This document shows positions 712-28,055 of a stretch of DNA of 64,000 bases, piece after piece. Under the pieces are notes generated by a model that searched no databases, had not been told where the DNA came from, and saw only the letters and a list, made by a program, of their open reading frames with translations. How positions within the stretch are numbered: the stretch's first letter is position 1; every line of letters begins with the position of its first letter. Made by a program: the position numbers and the translations under genes. The DNA is from Cellvibrio sp. PSBB023 (GTDB taxonomy: Bacteria > Pseudomonadota > Gammaproteobacteria > Pseudomonadales > Cellvibrionaceae), in the NCBI RefSeq assembly GCF_002007605.1, contig NZ_CP019799.1, forward strand, positions 3,760,001-3,824,000. Reading direction: 5' to 3'.

Positions 712-1913
712 AGTTCGAGCTCCAGCATTTGAAGTCTCATGCGGATGTAGCGTGTAGTAGTTGCAGGAGCGTGGCCGTCCTTTGTAAATTTATGCCCAAG
801 TCGTTGAGCAACAACAATAAGCGCTGCCGACTCAGAGCGTGTCTCCCGTCCGAAATTTCGCGTAATCTCATAGTGGAATAGCTCAGTTGCGAAGGTGTGA
901 CGGAGATCATGAAAACTTAACAGTTTGTTGAGGCCGGCAATCATCGCCCTCTTTCTAAAAACGCGTGAAGCTTGTTCGCGCCCAATTGGCATTCCTACGT
1001 TCCCAGGATCTCTTCTAACAAAAAAGCAATCTTCTGTACGATTTGCCATTTTTAAAATTGCCGCACGCTCACTCTCCACATATCGTCGCATTTCTAAAAG
1101 CAAATCGCGACTCAGATAAATCCAGCGAGATGTTTTCCCTTTTGTATACTTGCCCTTTAATAAGTAGGAAAATTCATCGTGGTGATCGAATTTTGCGTTA
1201 TCCAATTTTGGGAAGAGTTCAGCCAATCCTCCTTTGCCCGATAGTCGTAGTCCAACGAGCTCAGCAGTTCTTAACCCCACTTCGTAACCCATGCGCATCA
1301 TCAGCTTTTCGCTAATAGTAGTGCAGGCCGCTAATAACTTGTTTCTTCCACTTTTTGTTACATATTGGATGTATTGTTGCCTATCGCTTTTTTCTGCCAC
1401 TATTTGCCGTGTGGTTCGATAAGTTCGTAAGCTTAAGCGGGATTTTAATCCGACCGAATCAAGCCAGTTGTAGTATGCAACTAATGCGGATCGATGAGCT
1501 TCAATGGACGCAGCTTTAGTGAGCTCATCGCTAAGGATTTCATTGAGGTAGAAATTGACGACTTTCTCGCTGCAACTTGATGAAGCATGCATCCCTGGAG
1601 TGTTGTGAGTTGCCTTCGTTGCTTCGAGATAACTTAAAAATTTGGCTAAGTTATAGATGTACGCTCTAATAGTGGTGAGTTCTACTTCCCTCTCAACGTA
1701 TGTGCCCATGCGCGTGTCGCTTCTTTCATCTTGCTGAACCTTGTAGTCAAGTGTCATTCCGTACCGGCATAGATGGGTTGTGTAGAGTAGAGGCAGGATC
1801 GGAGGAGACCCTGCTTCATCTACGATTACGTACAAGTCATGGAATTGATGTTCCCGGTATTGGAAATTGGACAGCTTTCGCACTTTAGCAGGCATTGCGG
1901 TCATCTCGAACAT
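708..1913 (-). CDS. Tyrosine recombinase/integrase of an element inserted in comM
   Basis: A 401-residue site-specific recombinase of the phage-integrase (DNA breaking-rejoining) family. The catalytic set looks complete: Arg215 in EVGLRTAEL, a beta-hairpin Lys region (KGKYTKGKTSR), His335 and Arg338 in HDLRHTF, His374 in RLGH, and the nucleophile Tyr389 in TTRYI. The N-terminal about 180 residues would form the arm/core-binding domain. The gene reads away from the comM junction about 65 bases upstream and is the first gene of the inserted DNA. Its stop overlaps the start of the next gene (ATGA). It very likely catalyses integration and excision at comM. No clear Shine-Dalgarno precedes the ATG at 1913; in-frame ATGs at 1904 and 1895 are alternatives. 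Confidence 0.9.
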   Translation of the reverse strand: MFEMTAMPAKVRKLSNFQYREHQFHDLYVIVDEAGSPPILPLLYTTHLCRYGMTLDYKVQQDERSDTRMGTYVEREVELTTIRAYIYNLAKFLSYLEATKATHNTPGMHASSSCSEKVVNFYLNEILSDELTKAASIEAHRSALVAYYNWLDSVGLKSRLSLRTYRTTRQIVAEKSDRQQYIQYVTKSGRNKLLAACTTISEKLMMRMGYEVGLRTAELVGLRLSGKGGLAELFPKLDNAKFDHHDEFSYLLKGKYTKGKTSRWIYLSRDLLLEMRRYVESERAAILKMANRTEDCFFVRRDPGNVGMPIGREQASRVFRKRAMIAGLNKLLSFHDLRHTFATELFHYEITRNFGRETRSESAALIVVAQRLGHKFTKDGHAPATTTRYIRMRLQMLELEL

Positions 1914-24155: not shown

Positions 24156-24614
24156 ATGCTGATAAAAATTGATGACCTGACGAGCAATGAAATTGCAGAG
24201 CTATTAACTGAGCATTTGCAGGATATGTATGCCGCGTCGCCGCCGGAATGTGTGTATGCATTGGATTTGGAAAAATTACGCAAGCCGGAAATTACCTTTT
24301 GGAGTGTATGGGGCGGCAATCAGTTAATGGGATGCGGTGCCTTGAAAGAACTGGACGTACAGCATGCAGAAATTAAATCCATGCGCTCGGCAAACCGATT
24401 TCGCGGGCAGGGTGTGGGTAAGGCGATGCTGGAACATATCCTACAAGTAGCGCGCGAGCGTAATTACACCCGCATAAGCTTGGAAACCGGCTCGCCGGAT
24501 TTTTTCATCCCTGCACGTAAACTCTATGAACGCTATGGTTTTGAATACTGCGGGCCATTCGGCGATTACCGGGAAGACCCTTATAGTATGTTTATGACCA
24601 AAAAACTGGTGTGA
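24156..24614 (+). CDS. GNAT family N-acetyltransferase
   Basis: A 152-residue acetyltransferase with the acetyl-CoA pyrophosphate loop RFRGQGVGKAML and the fold core LLGCGALKEL-like stretch (here LMGCGALKEL). The C-terminal part LETGSPDFFIPARKLYERYGFEYCGPFGDYREDP matches the YsnE-type GNAT subfamily over two motifs. The substrate is unknown. AAGGAG lies 8 bases upstream of the ATG, within the end of the preceding small gene. Confidence 0.88.
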   Translation: MLIKIDDLTSNEIAELLTEHLQDMYAASPPECVYALDLEKLRKPEITFWSVWGGNQLMGCGALKELDVQHAEIKSMRSANRFRGQGVGKAMLEHILQVARERNYTRISLETGSPDFFIPARKLYERYGFEYCGPFGDYREDPYSMFMTKKLV

Positions 24615-24623
24615 TGTTTATTA

Positions 24624-24708
24624 AAAACACTGTGTGAGAAATTACGAGTGACAGGCTGGCTAAATTTGCGTTTCAGGCATTGATTTTCTACCACTGTCGC
24701 TTGTTATA
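24624..24708 (-). repeat. Cassette-end repeat A (attC-like imperfect palindrome)
   Basis: First of three related repeats, each at the 3' end of a minus-strand ORF. On the minus strand it starts with ATATAAC and AAGCGACAG, has the shared core AAATCAATGCCTGAAACGC and TTTAGCCAGCCTGTCACTCG, and folds through arms at 24628-24643 and 24685-24700. The last codons of the adjacent ORF lie inside it. The end proximal to ATATAAC resembles an integron R'' box (RYYYAAC); the opposite end reads GTAATTT where GTTRRRY is expected. Confidence 0.6.
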
Positions 24709-25140
24709 TTTTGACTCAGCGAGAGCTTTAATTTTTAGATTTTGAAAATTATATCTGTGCTGGTAAGAAGTGATTAGTTTGCGGTTAACCAAACGACTAA
24801 GAGCACCAGAAAATGTTTCTTCTTGTATTAATTTGCAGCAGGATTCCGATACTTCAAACAAAGTAAATTTTCTGATGCCACTAAGCAAGCTGCCGATTAT
24901 TGGAAGTGTCCCGGTCCATTCCAGATGCCTACGTTCTACAATTTTTACTTTATTTAGATTTATTCTTAACGGGACACCAGACATTTGAGTTTTAAGTAAT
25001 ACCGGAATCCCATTATTCGTGAGAACCTCAACATCACTTTTATGCCAGTCACTCCATTTGGAGAAGCTTGAAATAATACTCCAAACAGTATCAACACTTG
25101 CCTCGATCTCTGTTTCGACTCTGACATCAGAACTGTTCAT
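24688..25140 (-). CDS. SRPBCC/START-like domain protein in a cassette-like unit
   Basis: A 150-residue protein with the helix-grip (polyketide cyclase/SRPBCC) pattern: VRVETEIEASVDTVWSIISS at the N terminus, FSKWSDWHKSDVEV, and a C-terminal long helix. Such proteins bind small hydrophobic ligands; the ligand is unknown. The gene is visibly AT-rich compared with the genes around it. Its 3' end lies inside repeat A. About 20 bases upstream of its ATG, the minus strand carries CTTCGTTATAA; joining this to the end of repeat A would give arms TATAACAAGCGACAG and TATAACGAGTGACAG (as complement), as expected for an excised integron cassette. Confidence 0.75.
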   Translation of the reverse strand: MNSSDVRVETEIEASVDTVWSIISSFSKWSDWHKSDVEVLTNNGIPVLLKTQMSGVPLRINLNKVKIVERRHLEWTGTLPIIGSLLSGIRKFTLFEVSESCCKLIQEETFSGALSRLVNRKLITSYQHRYNFQNLKIKALAESKYNKRQW

Positions 25141-25430
25141 GGCAGCAATTTCCAGAAATTATAACGAAGCCGTAGAAAAGCCCAATAACTACTGAATTTG
25201 CCTACAGTCAATAGATTAATAATTAATTAGCCAACTTTGCCAAACTGTTCTTGGATTTTCAATTGCTCTTATTCATTAATAACATTGTTCTTTGAAAAAG
25301 CGAATTGTTTGCTTGTATTCGTTCTTATTTTCGCTTTGCTTTGGTCAAACTTCCATAATTCGCCAGCTTTTCGATATTGTGGATCATACAAAACAATTGC
25401 CCCTGATTTTTTGTTTACTACGCAGAAAAA
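25141..25430. other. AT-rich non-coding stretch inside the cassette-like block
   Basis: About 290 bases between repeat B and the SRPBCC gene. Frames of 60-74 codons occur but have no ribosome site or recognisable product. It could be a degenerate or ORF-less cassette. A weak inverted likeness to the repeats (TTAGCCAACTT near 25225) is present but not convincing. Confidence 0.45.
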
Positions 25431-25530
25431 TGATAACGATTTTGAATGCTATGATGGATGATAGTTGCGAGTGACAAGCTGGCTAATTTTTCGACGAATG
25501 TGTTGATTTTTTCCCATGGCATTTGTTATG
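25431..25530 (-). repeat. Cassette-end repeat B (attC-like imperfect palindrome)
   Basis: Second copy. On the minus strand it opens with ACATAAC, shares AAAAATCAAC and ATTAGCCAGCTTGTCACTCG with the other copies, and ends with GTTATCA (25431-25437), which pairs with ACATAAC over its inner bases. Arms at 25444-25457 and 25513-25525 pair (AATGCTATG against AATGCCATG) and differ in sequence from those of copies A and C while remaining complementary, which suggests a selected hairpin. Confidence 0.6.
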
Positions 25531-26043
25531 TATACTTTCTATATACTCATCAACCTTCAAGTCTGTCCAGGTTTCAACACTAAGTATTGAAGAATACGGA
25601 TCTCCAGGAATTTGCAGCAATTGACATATTGCAGGTTCTGTTTTTAACCCCGCTTCCTTGAGCTTCCGAACCTTCTCTGAAAAATCATTTCCTCCAGCTG
25701 CTACAACGCGCTTCATCACTTGATAGTGACGGTAAGCCATCTGTTCTTTCACTGGTGTGTTGGTGGCATATATTTCAAAAATGAAGTTTTGAAAACTAAA
25801 TCTTCCAACCACACGATCTTCATATACCTTCAGATGGTACGAATCATACGCTGATATAGTCAAATTCAGATCATCAGTGAAAACGTTTTGATCAACATAA
25901 TTGCATACGATGTCAATATCACTTTCTGATGTATCAAGATTAACGAATATTGTGCTGACTACTTCTGGTGAGTAGCTCTTGAGTTTATGTAATATCTGAG
26001 TATCTTTTATCGCGTTTTCAGCACGAGTTATCTTGCTATTCAT
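25483..26043 (-). CDS. DUF4269 family protein (nucleotidyltransferase-like) in a cassette-like unit
   Basis: A 186-residue protein that I recognise as DUF4269. It has the opening TQILHKLKSYSPEVVSTIFVN, the acidic pair in SESDIDIVC that resembles a nucleotidyltransferase GS...DxD site, TPVKEQMAYRHYQVM, and VRKLKEAGLKTEPAICQLL followed by GDPY. The molecular function is not established; the fold suggests nucleotide transfer. It is AT-rich and ends inside repeat B. The family is common in mobile cassettes as far as I recall. Confidence 0.8.
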   Translation of the reverse strand: MNSKITRAENAIKDTQILHKLKSYSPEVVSTIFVNLDTSESDIDIVCNYVDQNVFTDDLNLTISAYDSYHLKVYEDRVVGRFSFQNFIFEIYATNTPVKEQMAYRHYQVMKRVVAAGGNDFSEKVRKLKEAGLKTEPAICQLLQIPGDPYSSILSVETWTDLKVDEYIESIHNKCHGKKSTHSSKN

Positions 26044-26104
26044 TCTTGCTATAAGCTCATAAAATGTAATGCGGCCATAGAAAATCCTAAAAATTTTTCA
26101 TTTT

Positions 26105-26195
26105 ACTAATGCAGTGATGCGTGATAATTACGAGTGGAAGGTTAACTAAATTTGCGTTTCAGGTATTGATTTTTTTATCGCATCGCTTGTTGGGA
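26105..26195 (-). repeat. Cassette-end repeat C (attC-like imperfect palindrome)
   Basis: Third copy, starting 1 base after the stop of the adjacent ORF. On the minus strand it opens with TCCCAAC (a good RYYYAAC-type box) and AAGCGATGCG. It shares AATCAATACCTGAAACGC and AAATTTAG with copy A, and its far arm (26111-26125) pairs with the near arm through GATGCG. The matching GTTRRRY box for an excised unit would be GTTAGGC at 26900-26906. Confidence 0.6.
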
Positions 26196-26196
26196 T

Positions 26197-26895
26197 TTAC
26201 CATATATTTGGCCATTTGCTTGACGTAAATAATGTGGCCCACACAGCTAAAACTGGAACAAATAAGATAATAATTTTCTCTATAAAATATAGTGACTTAT
26301 TTCGTATTAATTGCTTATTTCTAAAGTCACGAAAAATAAGCCATAACCGCCAAAAATATAAATATTGGCTATCGAAAGATATGGCGCTAGTAGCAACACA
26401 GTATTTGATATAAGTGTTAAGAATACTTGATATTTTCTTTTCTGTGAGTTCGTGAGGTTCAATATTTAAATGTAAAATTATATTTTCTTCATTGACACTG
26501 GCAATACTTGATTTGTAAGGGTACAAAAATACCATTATTTTCCCGTTAATTCCTTGCGAAAAAACCAGTGCGGATTCCGATTCAAGAACATGCTCTACTT
26601 TCTCTACCCCATCTTTAACAATGCCCTTGTAAACATTAAGACGTCTCCAACCGGTAGAAATTTGAATATGATTAATGAAATTGCTCTTGTATAAATACTT
26701 GATGTTATAGATGGGATTAGACTTTCTGTTATTTATTAAATATAAGCCACCTAAAGCATCAAAGTTATATGCATTGTTTAATGACGAAAAATATTCTTCA
26801 ATTCTTTCCTCAAAGAATATCCAATTTACCCGCCGAATGTATGCTTCGTCTTCTTTTGATTTAAGAAGGGACATTAGCTTGTCAATTTTTTCCAT
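26197..26895 (-). CDS. Unknown C-terminally membrane-anchored protein in a cassette-like unit
   Basis: A 232-residue protein without a family I recognise. The first about 200 residues are soluble and rich in Lys, Ile and Asn, with a possible beta-rich middle (NGKIMVFLYPYKSS) and a Trp/Phe-rich helix (YFWRLWLIFRDFR). One hydrophobic helix near the C terminus (FIEKIIILFVPVLAVWATLF) would anchor it in the membrane. The ATG lies 4 bases after GTTAGGC, the expected layout of an integron cassette, and repeat C begins just after the stop. It is strongly AT-rich. A role in defence or membrane stress is only a guess. Confidence 0.7.
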   Translation of the reverse strand: MEKIDKLMSLLKSKEDEAYIRRVNWIFFEERIEEYFSSLNNAYNFDALGGLYLINNRKSNPIYNIKYLYKSNFINHIQISTGWRRLNVYKGIVKDGVEKVEHVLESESALVFSQGINGKIMVFLYPYKSSIASVNEENIILHLNIEPHELTEKKISSILNTYIKYCVATSAISFDSQYLYFWRLWLIFRDFRNKQLIRNKSLYFIEKIIILFVPVLAVWATLFTSSKWPNIW

Positions 26896-26899
26896 ATTA

Positions 26900-26906
26900 G
26901 CCTAAC
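26900..26906 (-). other. Integron-like core heptamer GTTAGGC before the third cassette ORF
   Basis: On the minus strand GTTAGGC matches the GTTRRRY core site exactly and sits 4 bases before the ATG at 26895. Upstream on that strand is a GC-palindrome (CGCGCATGCGCGCG region, 26912-26930). If real, this is where the cassette block begins. Confidence 0.5.
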
Positions 26907-27047
26907 ATTTGTATGCGCGCGCATGCGCGTTTTTTGCCAAGGTGTTGCGCGTTATCATTCTAGTGTCATTCCAAGTTATTGACCATTCAGACGTTTTGGC
27001 TGTGTCCCTGCGGAAAGTGCGTTGGGAATTGGTGATGGATAAATTTG

Positions 27048-27084
27048 ATAAAACGCCGTGGGAGAAAATCGCACGGCGTTTTTT
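27048..27084. terminator. Terminator at the 3' end of the xylanase gene
   Basis: Stem AACGCCGTG (27052-27060) / CACGGCGTT (27072-27080), 11-base loop, T-runs on both strands (TTTT after each arm). It ends the minus-strand xylanase transcript and separates it from the cassette-like block. Confidence 0.88.
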
Positions 27085-27091
27085 ATGGATG

Positions 27092-27925
27092 CTATTGCGC
27101 GGAGGCATCCCAGACTTTGCCGGAGGCGGTGCCGTCTTTTGGTGGGTTGAACACTTCTACGGCCATGACTTGATAGGTGGGGTCGTCGCTGGCGTTGAGG
27201 TTGTTCATGTTGGGAATAATCCAGCCGCTGTCGGCCCAGGCTTTTACGTGGTCGGCAAAAATAATGACATGGTCTTCACCCAGTGGGCGCTGTTCGCTGG
27301 GTTTGCTCCAGTATTGATAGAAGGTAGAGGGGCCGTTGATGGAGGGTTTTTGTTCGCGAATGGAGCGGTAGGTGGAGTATTCCACGCCGTTGCTGATGAA
27401 GGTTTTGCCGAAGGTGCCGTCTTTGCTTGGGTCGTAGGTCCAGCGCTGCAAAATGTAGTATTCCACCAAGTGGGCTGGGTCTGTATCGGGCATGGTGTTG
27501 TCGTAACCCCAGCCGTATAGGGTGATGTAACTTGCACCGCTGTCTTCATTAAAACGATAGCCAATTTTGCGGGCTTCATCGCCGTAGTGCCAACCGGGGC
27601 CACCCACGTAGTTGTAGCCACCGCCTTGCCAGCTCACGCTAAAGGCGCCATCGGGGCTCATGTCTAATGATGCGGCGCCGCCGTCTTTCCAGTGGGTGAA
27701 GAAAAAGTTACCCACGTGACCGGTGGCGTGGTTTTGGGTGATTTGGGTTGGCTCGTTAAATTGCTGCGTATAGGCTGCAAATTTTTGGATGGCAGTTTCT
27801 GTTGTGGTGTTGGTGTTGATTGCGGGGGCTTGTTGTTGCCCCTCGCTTTGTTGCCCTTCGCCGCAGCCGATGAGCTGGGTAATGGCCAGTAAACCGGCGG
27901 TGATAAGCGCGATAGTATTTTTCAA
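27092..27925 (-). CDS. GH11 endo-1,4-beta-xylanase, lipoprotein
   Basis: A 277-residue glycoside hydrolase family 11 enzyme that cuts xylan. The start is a TTG at 27925 with AGAGGA 8 bases upstream; it gives a lipoprotein signal, MKNTIALITAGLLAITQLIGC (Cys21). The open frame further upstream has no support. After a Gln/Thr-rich linker come GH11 features: SVSWQGGGYNYVGGPGW, LYGWGYDN, the nucleophile Glu155 in HLVEYYI, KPSINGPSTFYQYWS, and the acid/base Glu257 in MAVEVFN. No carbohydrate-binding module. Lipid anchoring suggests action at the cell surface on oligomers, unlike secreted multi-domain xylanases. Confidence 0.9.
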   Translation of the reverse strand: MKNTIALITAGLLAITQLIGCGEGQQSEGQQQAPAINTNTTTETAIQKFAAYTQQFNEPTQITQNHATGHVGNFFFTHWKDGGAASLDMSPDGAFSVSWQGGGYNYVGGPGWHYGDEARKIGYRFNEDSGASYITLYGWGYDNTMPDTDPAHLVEYYILQRWTYDPSKDGTFGKTFISNGVEYSTYRSIREQKPSINGPSTFYQYWSKPSEQRPLGEDHVIIFADHVKAWADSGWIIPNMNNLNASDDPTYQVMAVEVFNPPKDGTASGKVWDASAQ

Positions 27926-28055
27926 GGGTTTTTCCTCTGGTGCGGTTAATGTGCTCAGGTTGTGGCTGTGCAGGACATGGGTGTCGCTTTTTATAGTGTG
28001 AGGAATTAAAGCAGCTATTGCCGGACAAACCAACCACAAGTGTCGGACAAGTCAA

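Follow-up and report, generated by a model that had tools for sequence, protein, structure and literature searches.

The three-gene array and its flanks

The window analysed here, 64,000 nucleotides (nt) of Cellvibrio sp. PSBB023 from bases 3,760,001–3,824,000 of a single 4.705-Mb contig, contains an AT-rich block (GC content 0.30–0.38, against 0.43–0.59 in its flanks) with three minus-strand open reading frames (ORFs) of 150, 186 and 232 aa, each with a related repeat at its 3′ end. These repeats, A, B and C, lie on the same strand at 24640–24687, 25463–25510 and 26126–26173; over 48 nt, B shares 75% identity with A, and C shares 88%. The original prediction had described the block as an integron cassette array without integrase, its repeats being either degenerate attC sites or an unusual attC family. 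The three repeats, their position at ORF ends and the AT-rich composition noted there were borne out, and both motifs that it singled out are present: GTTAGGC (26906–26900), 4 bases ahead of the ORF3 ATG, and CGTTATAA, upstream of the SRPBCC ORF. We interpret the locus as what is very probably a fossil integron, made up of an attI site and three cassettes, in which the integrase is gone and the attC sites have been replaced by scars of insertion sequences (ISs).

Read along the minus strand, the array begins at an attI-like site (26906–26945; 33 nt, 97% identity to a composite query assembled from other copies) that forms its proximal edge and ends in G|TT ahead of ORF3. Cassette 3 (26197–26905, first bases TTAGGC) contains ORF3 (26895–26197, 232 aa) and is followed by an R″-like box, TCCCAAC (26189–26195), and by repeat C (26089–26188). 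Next come a short decayed end like an IS1182 terminal repeat (GGATTTTCTATGGCCGC; 26071–26087, by pattern match) with ATTACAT at the place of R′, and the cassette 2 ORF (25483–26043, 186 aa; DUF4269, PF14091, E = 6.2e-47) with the R″-like box ACATAAC (25525–25531) and repeat B (25425–25524). The 3′ end of an IS1182-family element, comprising the transposase C-terminus and right terminal repeat (25166–25406), adjoins the R′ box GTTATAA (25159–25165) at which cassette 1 starts. This last cassette encodes an SRPBCC/polyketide cyclase-like protein of 150 aa (24688–25140; PF10604, E = 2.4e-10), and its R″-like box ATATAAC (24703–24709) stands before repeat A (24614–24702). A plus-strand GNAT acetyltransferase gene (24156–24614; Pfam) forms the chromosomal flank at this side. 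At the other side, an inverted repeat with a T-run, resembling a terminator, lies at 27050–27088 between the array and a GH11 gene (27092–28039). An Rfam scan of the 24–28 kb interval gave four matches, every one below its gathering score.

The cassette genes do not behave as core genes. A search with ORF2 gave 32 proteins at E ≤ 1e-20 (itself included), among them relatives from Alcanivorax (84% identity), Myxosarcina (65%), Endozoicomonadaceae, Aliidiomarina and Idiomarina. Such a scatter over several phyla suggests a mobile gene. For ORF3 a single further homologue was found (87%, E ≤ 0.001), and ORF3 itself matches no Pfam or NCBIfam family. The GNAT gene is found in 14 of 21 genomes of the genus, the present one included (E ≤ 1e-20), and in all 13 relatives that carry it the cassette ORFs are absent from the adjoining 1.5 kb, which excludes their being syntenic core genes and agrees with what had been predicted. 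In the nearest relative (G016), about 340 bp separate the end of the GNAT gene from the next match to the window, and both the array and the GH11 gene are missing.

Insertion-sequence ends at the cassette junctions

The repeats were identified with a model (R2) of seven IS110 right ends, drawn from fuller copies in five genomes and including no window sequence. Applied to both strands of the whole window, R2 returned exactly B, C and A (60.1, 59.4 and 55.6 bits; E = 1.2e-17, 2.1e-17 and 3.1e-16, respectively) and nothing else up to E = 10. The repeat core consists of a 39-nt non-coding right end plus up to about 20 of the last transposase codons; repeat B reads KMITILNAMMDDSCE where the transposase C-terminus has RKMVTILNAMVRDNCEWQAK (tblastn, E = 0.001). 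The same core occurs twice in the genome's true integron, and there one copy closes an open transposase gene (L005:10123–11082). This homology identifies A, B and C as right-end relics of an attC-targeting IS110-family IS, and no complete IS110 element stands at any of them. The relics extend into the coding sequence of the cassettes: the last residues and the stop codon of the cassette 1 ORF lie inside the relic, 12 nt beyond the junction for the stop, and ORF2 runs into its relic for about 14 codons more than its aligned close relatives, which end near 172 aa. The distal part of A (about 24614–24635) resembles, by eye, the sequence downstream of the GNAT gene in a relative (L172), which has the same motif as the terminator-like repeat at 27050–27088, and this part of A may belong to GNAT-downstream chromosomal sequence.

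The corresponding element in the true integron (L005 9916–11121) is 1,206 nt long, with 207 nt before and 39 nt after the transposase gene. Its transposase scores 211 bits against NF033542 (cut-off 140) and contains both the DEDD_Tnp_IS110 and Transposase_20 domains (PF01548 and PF02371); its named relatives include a protein from a Cellvibrionaceae metagenome-assembled genome, 76% identical. Across the genus we counted 64 right-end sites, namely 62 found by pattern in 15 of 21 genomes (control matches, 0) together with B and C; 11 are full or internally deleted elements and 53 are solo ends, two of them cut by a contig end. The fuller copies are inserted just after the attC R″ box (YAAC|RA) with the right end towards the cassette. 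In 10 of the 11 the left end was located by pattern, and YAAC stands on one side in 10/10, YAAC having formed part of that search pattern, with AA (nine copies) or GA (one) on the other side; for one of the ten the target was masked by N, and the left end of the eleventh copy came from blast. Genome G004 reads N in parts of its source sequence. As had been expected, the repeats stay near ORF ends, an upstream frame of at least 60 aa ending near the junction in 56 of the 64 genus copies, a weak test in which the longest of three frames was taken.

The long left end of this element may explain its choice of target. An alignment of ten left ends (three from this genome, seven from other records) yielded 43 consensus base pairs, 11 of them with two-sided changes. 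The sequence GTTAACAAGC, equal to the R″/L″ target, is present in nine of the ten, and so is AACAGTCG, complementary to CGACTGT of the right end. On its 5′ side the loop agrees with the right flank of the target at 7–8 of 8 positions in six of nine testable copies (single p values 0.007–0.08), four of these six coming from one genome. The left end therefore looks like a putative bridge RNA that would read the attC R″/L″ sequence, a function that we infer from these matches.

According to passages of PMC11208160 and PMC11187229, the guide RNA of the IS110 group lies mostly in the left end, and the attC-targeting elements ISKpn4 and ISPst6 belong to the IS1111 group, whose guide RNA is placed in the right end in a passage of PMC11208160. 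The element described here shares the DEDD transposase with those attC-targeting IS1111 elements and differs from them in its long left end (207 nt), its short right end (39 nt) and its predicted guide on the left; the guide RNA in a long right end is absent. Its layout is that of the IS110 group, the left end exceeding the right and holding the predicted structured RNA. An assignment of A, B and C to IS1111-type ends carrying a guide RNA was excluded on the same grounds, the right end comprising 39 nt of non-coding sequence and the RNA-like sequence lying in the left end. Among the literature matches listed for IS110/IS1111 with attC and for bridge RNA with integron, no title concerned an IS110-group element in attC.

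A second, unrelated family occupies the opposite end of the attC site. The segment 25406–25166, between B and the SRPBCC cassette, matches positions 1570–1815 of an IS1182 element (blastn, 73% over 251 nt, E = 7e-35) and encodes 26 aa of its transposase C-terminus (85% identity, E = 1.6e-8). The complete element, in genome G001, is 1,815 nt long, has an open transposase frame above the family cut-off (NF033551, 272.8 bits against 270) and GAAGCYGTAGAAAAACC as terminal repeats, and interrupts an attC R′ box, with GTT on one side and GTTAGGC on the other. The window holds the 3′ end only. An internally deleted copy in the present genome (L021 8819–9271) has GTT at both sides. Insertion exactly at the GTT of attC R′, with both ends seen in these two elements, sets them apart within the IS1182 family, and no title among the literature matches listed showed IS1182 in attC as a topic. 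The short IS1182-like end at the junction between C and ORF2 was found by pattern and was not reported by blastn. With IS110 at R″ and IS1182 at R′, the two ends of attC would thus be attacked by two unrelated IS families. We had also considered one long attC formed by pairing of the IS110 end with an 87-nt repeat upstream of the SRPBCC gene; their inverted likeness was weak (p = 0.012–0.92 over 25 comparisons), and the 87-nt repeat turned out to be an IS1182 end.

Two further observations concern IS110 ends elsewhere. A class A beta-lactamase gene (L022 6349–7251, minus strand; near 1.83 Mb of G000:C1; NF033103, 253.8 bits, cut-off 200) is flanked on both sides by IS110 right-end relics in a cassette-like stretch. 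A second repeat agrees with the IS110 right end over roughly its first 20 nt only and then continues as AATCGGTAGATTCGGCATCAAAATC...CCGCAATTGGCCG. Twelve places in the genus, L024 4379 and L158 1065 among them, match it over at least 55 nt, and L026 2899 has a shorter match; in both copies read with their surroundings (L024 and L026) it closes a cassette array, and it may be the right end of a different IS110 subfamily.

attC model, attI-like site and integrase

A canonical attC site has the R″ consensus RYYYAAC and the R′ consensus GTTRRRY. R″-like boxes precede A, B and C, and none of the repeats has a proper R′ at its far end. We built a covariance model (R1) from nine attC sites of the genus. 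It recognised 12 minus-strand sites, at 46–129 bits (two of them in the training set), in the genome's true integron (G000:C1, about 298,800–309,904; L005 8,860–19,904), which has an integrase scoring 425 bits. R1 also found sites in four other loci of this genome (L021, with one site in the training set, L022, L024 and L026) and none in L023. In the window it gave no match at E ≤ 1 with default filters over the full length, and with filters off the best hit in 20–32 kb reached 6.2 bits (E = 4.8). The true integron array, for its part, contains an IS110 copy and an IS3-family transposase pair.

All three repeats are thus rejected as attC sites by a model trained on the genus. The proposed unusual attC family is not supported, the shared core being an IS110 right end and the segment before the SRPBCC gene an IS1182-family end. 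The alternative wording, a degenerate array, was right in spirit. The cassettes themselves stand up better than their supposed attC sites: the R″-like boxes, one clear R′, the attI-like site, the absence of the ORFs from relatives and the patchy DUF4269 distribution all favour cassettes without an integrase. A passage of PMC12444791 defines a CALIN as a cluster of attC sites lacking an integrase, that is, cassettes with no integrase nearby. The present array resembles a CALIN in its row of cassettes and nearby lack of integrase; it differs in that no site in it passes the genus attC model and in that an attI-like site stands at its proximal end.

That proximal end is recognisable because the bases ahead of ORF3, AACGCGCATGCGCGCGCATACAAATG|TTAGGC, recur in the genus. 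The search returned 35 places, corresponding to 30 loci, 21 of which have the motif; 19 were aligned, the weaker L248 and L256 being left out. Anchored on the G|TT edge, these 19 loci (for example L227 at G000:C1:2316512 and L228 in G001) are alike up to G|TTA and divergent after it, as judged by eye. An integron integrase gene lies beside 6 of the 19 and an N-terminal IntI remnant beside two; the 1.5-kb flanks of the other 11, the window site included, have none. The window site is therefore homologous, up to G|TT, to sites next to intI and has no adjacent integrase gene itself, and 26945–26906 looks like the attI-like proximal end of the array. An alternative view of the array's left-end sequences as scattered palindromes was set aside, since reverse-strand matches were mostly the same palindromes found twice and the sites with the full motif were attI-like. 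A second GCGCATGCGC palindrome, found about 105 nt from the attI-like motif (G016:C1:1782443 and 2467619; G011:C1:3778653 and 4397942), may be part of the attI region.

The integrases beside the six loci form a second lineage (IntI-B), 44.7–47.2% identical to the genome's own in five cases and 29.6% in the sixth; one that was checked scores 403 bits against TIGR02249. No trace of a lineage-B integrase was found in the window, and none of the eight TIGR02249 matches falls in it, so the original statement that no integrase is in sight holds for the window, although the genome does have an integron integrase, about 1.2 Mb from the array if the contig is circular. The GH11 gene stands about where an integrase gene would be expected. 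Integrase loss looks common in the genus, because many attI-like sites have no integrase in their 1.5-kb flanks and two have a remnant. A tyrosine recombinase domain elsewhere in the window (873–1358, minus strand; 52 bits, in a 405-aa frame) is not among the TIGR02249 integron integrase matches.

A proposed history of the array

We propose that the locus is the remnant of a chromosomal integron whose attI-like site (26945–26906) is still followed by three minus-strand cassettes and whose integrase gene has been lost. Each cassette's attC would have been struck by an attC-seeking IS: an IS110 element inserting immediately behind R″ (YAAC|RA), its right end facing the cassette, and an IS1182 element at the GTT of R′, clearly at one junction and probably at a second. 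Deletions would then have taken out the element bodies and the attC centre, leaving stubs of about 70–100 nt (IS110) and 240 nt (IS1182), and with attC and integrase lost the cassettes would be locked in place. The order of these events, the deletion mechanism and the immobility of the cassettes we infer from what remains. Some solo right ends in the genus are joined, by eye, to an attC right half or R′ at short shared words, giving hybrids of an IS110 stub and a canonical attC (L127 1430, L142 1070 and L144 1203 on the minus strand; L145 973 on the plus strand), and such joints point to microhomology deletion.

Several observations weigh against this history. The window has no IS110 left end, no IS1182 left end and no recognisable attC centre, so the route to the present state is unobserved; the blast search of the own genome gave A and C and not B, which was recovered by tblastn and by model R2. 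Since R1 was trained on the long-stemmed attC sites of the genus, an odd attC could escape it, and three of nine testable IS110 copies sit in attC sites that mismatch the proposed guide. Among relics, moreover, right ends are kept more often than left ends, which random deletion would not predict. Sixteen left-end matches were found, spread over 10 of 21 genomes; nine come from fuller copies and four have two mismatches (control level, four), so that two or three remain as solo left ends, and one of these lies at a contig edge. This asymmetry is a lead and not a measured ratio, because the two patterns are unequal in information and the short solo ends may be another subfamily. A role of right ends as stop-codon donors was rejected as its cause: only 2 of 53 solo ends have the stop in their first 20 bases, and in 48 of 53 it lies at or before R″.

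The arms of the relics are the other feature that plain decay would not predict. As originally noted, the two arms of a copy are complementary to one another: in every relic, bases 60–90 pair with the first 22 bases (shuffling p = 0.08 for A, 0.02 for B and 0.0025–0.005 for C), and the own partner scores best in all three, values that are not blind because the window was chosen partly for this feature. All six intact IS110 right ends and all 12 other relics put to the same test gave p ≥ 0.4; three of those relics (L145, L155 and L183a) are so short that the tested stretch lies mostly outside IS-derived sequence. Folding of the whole repeats as DNA did not set A, B and C apart from dinucleotide shuffles (z = −1.2 to 1.4). 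Complementary arms of this kind would be yielded by templated repair of quasi-palindromes or by selection for hairpins.

We judge it unlikely that selection or templated repair has turned the IS110 ends into attC-like hairpins and the scars into replacement recombination sites. The complementarity in 3/3 window relics against 0/18 controls (three of them not fully comparable) and the best match of each arm with its own partner speak for it, as does the left arm of B, AATGCCATGG, the exact complement of the usual IS right arm CCATGGCATT; yet A alone is weak and its far arm is maybe chromosomal, the R′ boxes are missing, whole-repeat folding does not stand out, the window was picked partly for its arms, and quasi-palindrome correction would look alike without any function. 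The fuller version of this idea, in which a bridge-RNA-guided IS110 element hits attC and leaves right-end stubs, perhaps by aborted recombination, that evolve into attC-like hairpins, is similarly improbable; if true, insertion sequences would both destroy and regenerate cassette recombination sites.

We regard as very unlikely that A, B and C are a genuine, unusual attC family in an ordinary CALIN still open to mobilisation by an integrase. Each repeat does follow a cassette ORF and an R″-like box and has arms complementary within the copy, but the genus-trained model gives nothing here, the core, transposase codons included, is that of an IS110 right end, and at the far ends C lacks a GTT, the GTT of B is 8 nt off and A has GTTTTTA. 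Least credible is the suggestion that the repeats are complete non-autonomous IS110 derivatives, akin to miniature inverted-repeat transposable elements, mobilised in trans by intact copies: fuller IS110 copies are present in the genome and the R″ junctions are precise, but no left end follows A, B or C, and the three left-end matches in this genome are those of its three fuller copies. The lengths of the 53 solo ends also vary (21 with an IS match of at least 28 nt, up to 215; 25 with 15–26 nt; 7 by pattern only), which argues against any defined element of that sort. The reading of the locus as a fossil integron scarred by ISs is the one that we retain.

Integron fossils are a known kind; what sets this one apart is the predicted left-end guide of an IS110-group element, its IS1182 partner at R′ and the self-complementary arms. 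A left-end-RNA-guided IS110-group element at attC, as this one apparently is, would widen attC targeting beyond the IS1111 group. Two features invite testing: the bias towards right-end stubs, and the self-complementarity of the arms, which among the ends tested is confined to this window. Above all, the array offers a concrete, sequence-level route of integron death, in which two unrelated IS families strike the two ends of attC and the cassettes are locked in place, and such scarred arrays would escape attC-based searches.

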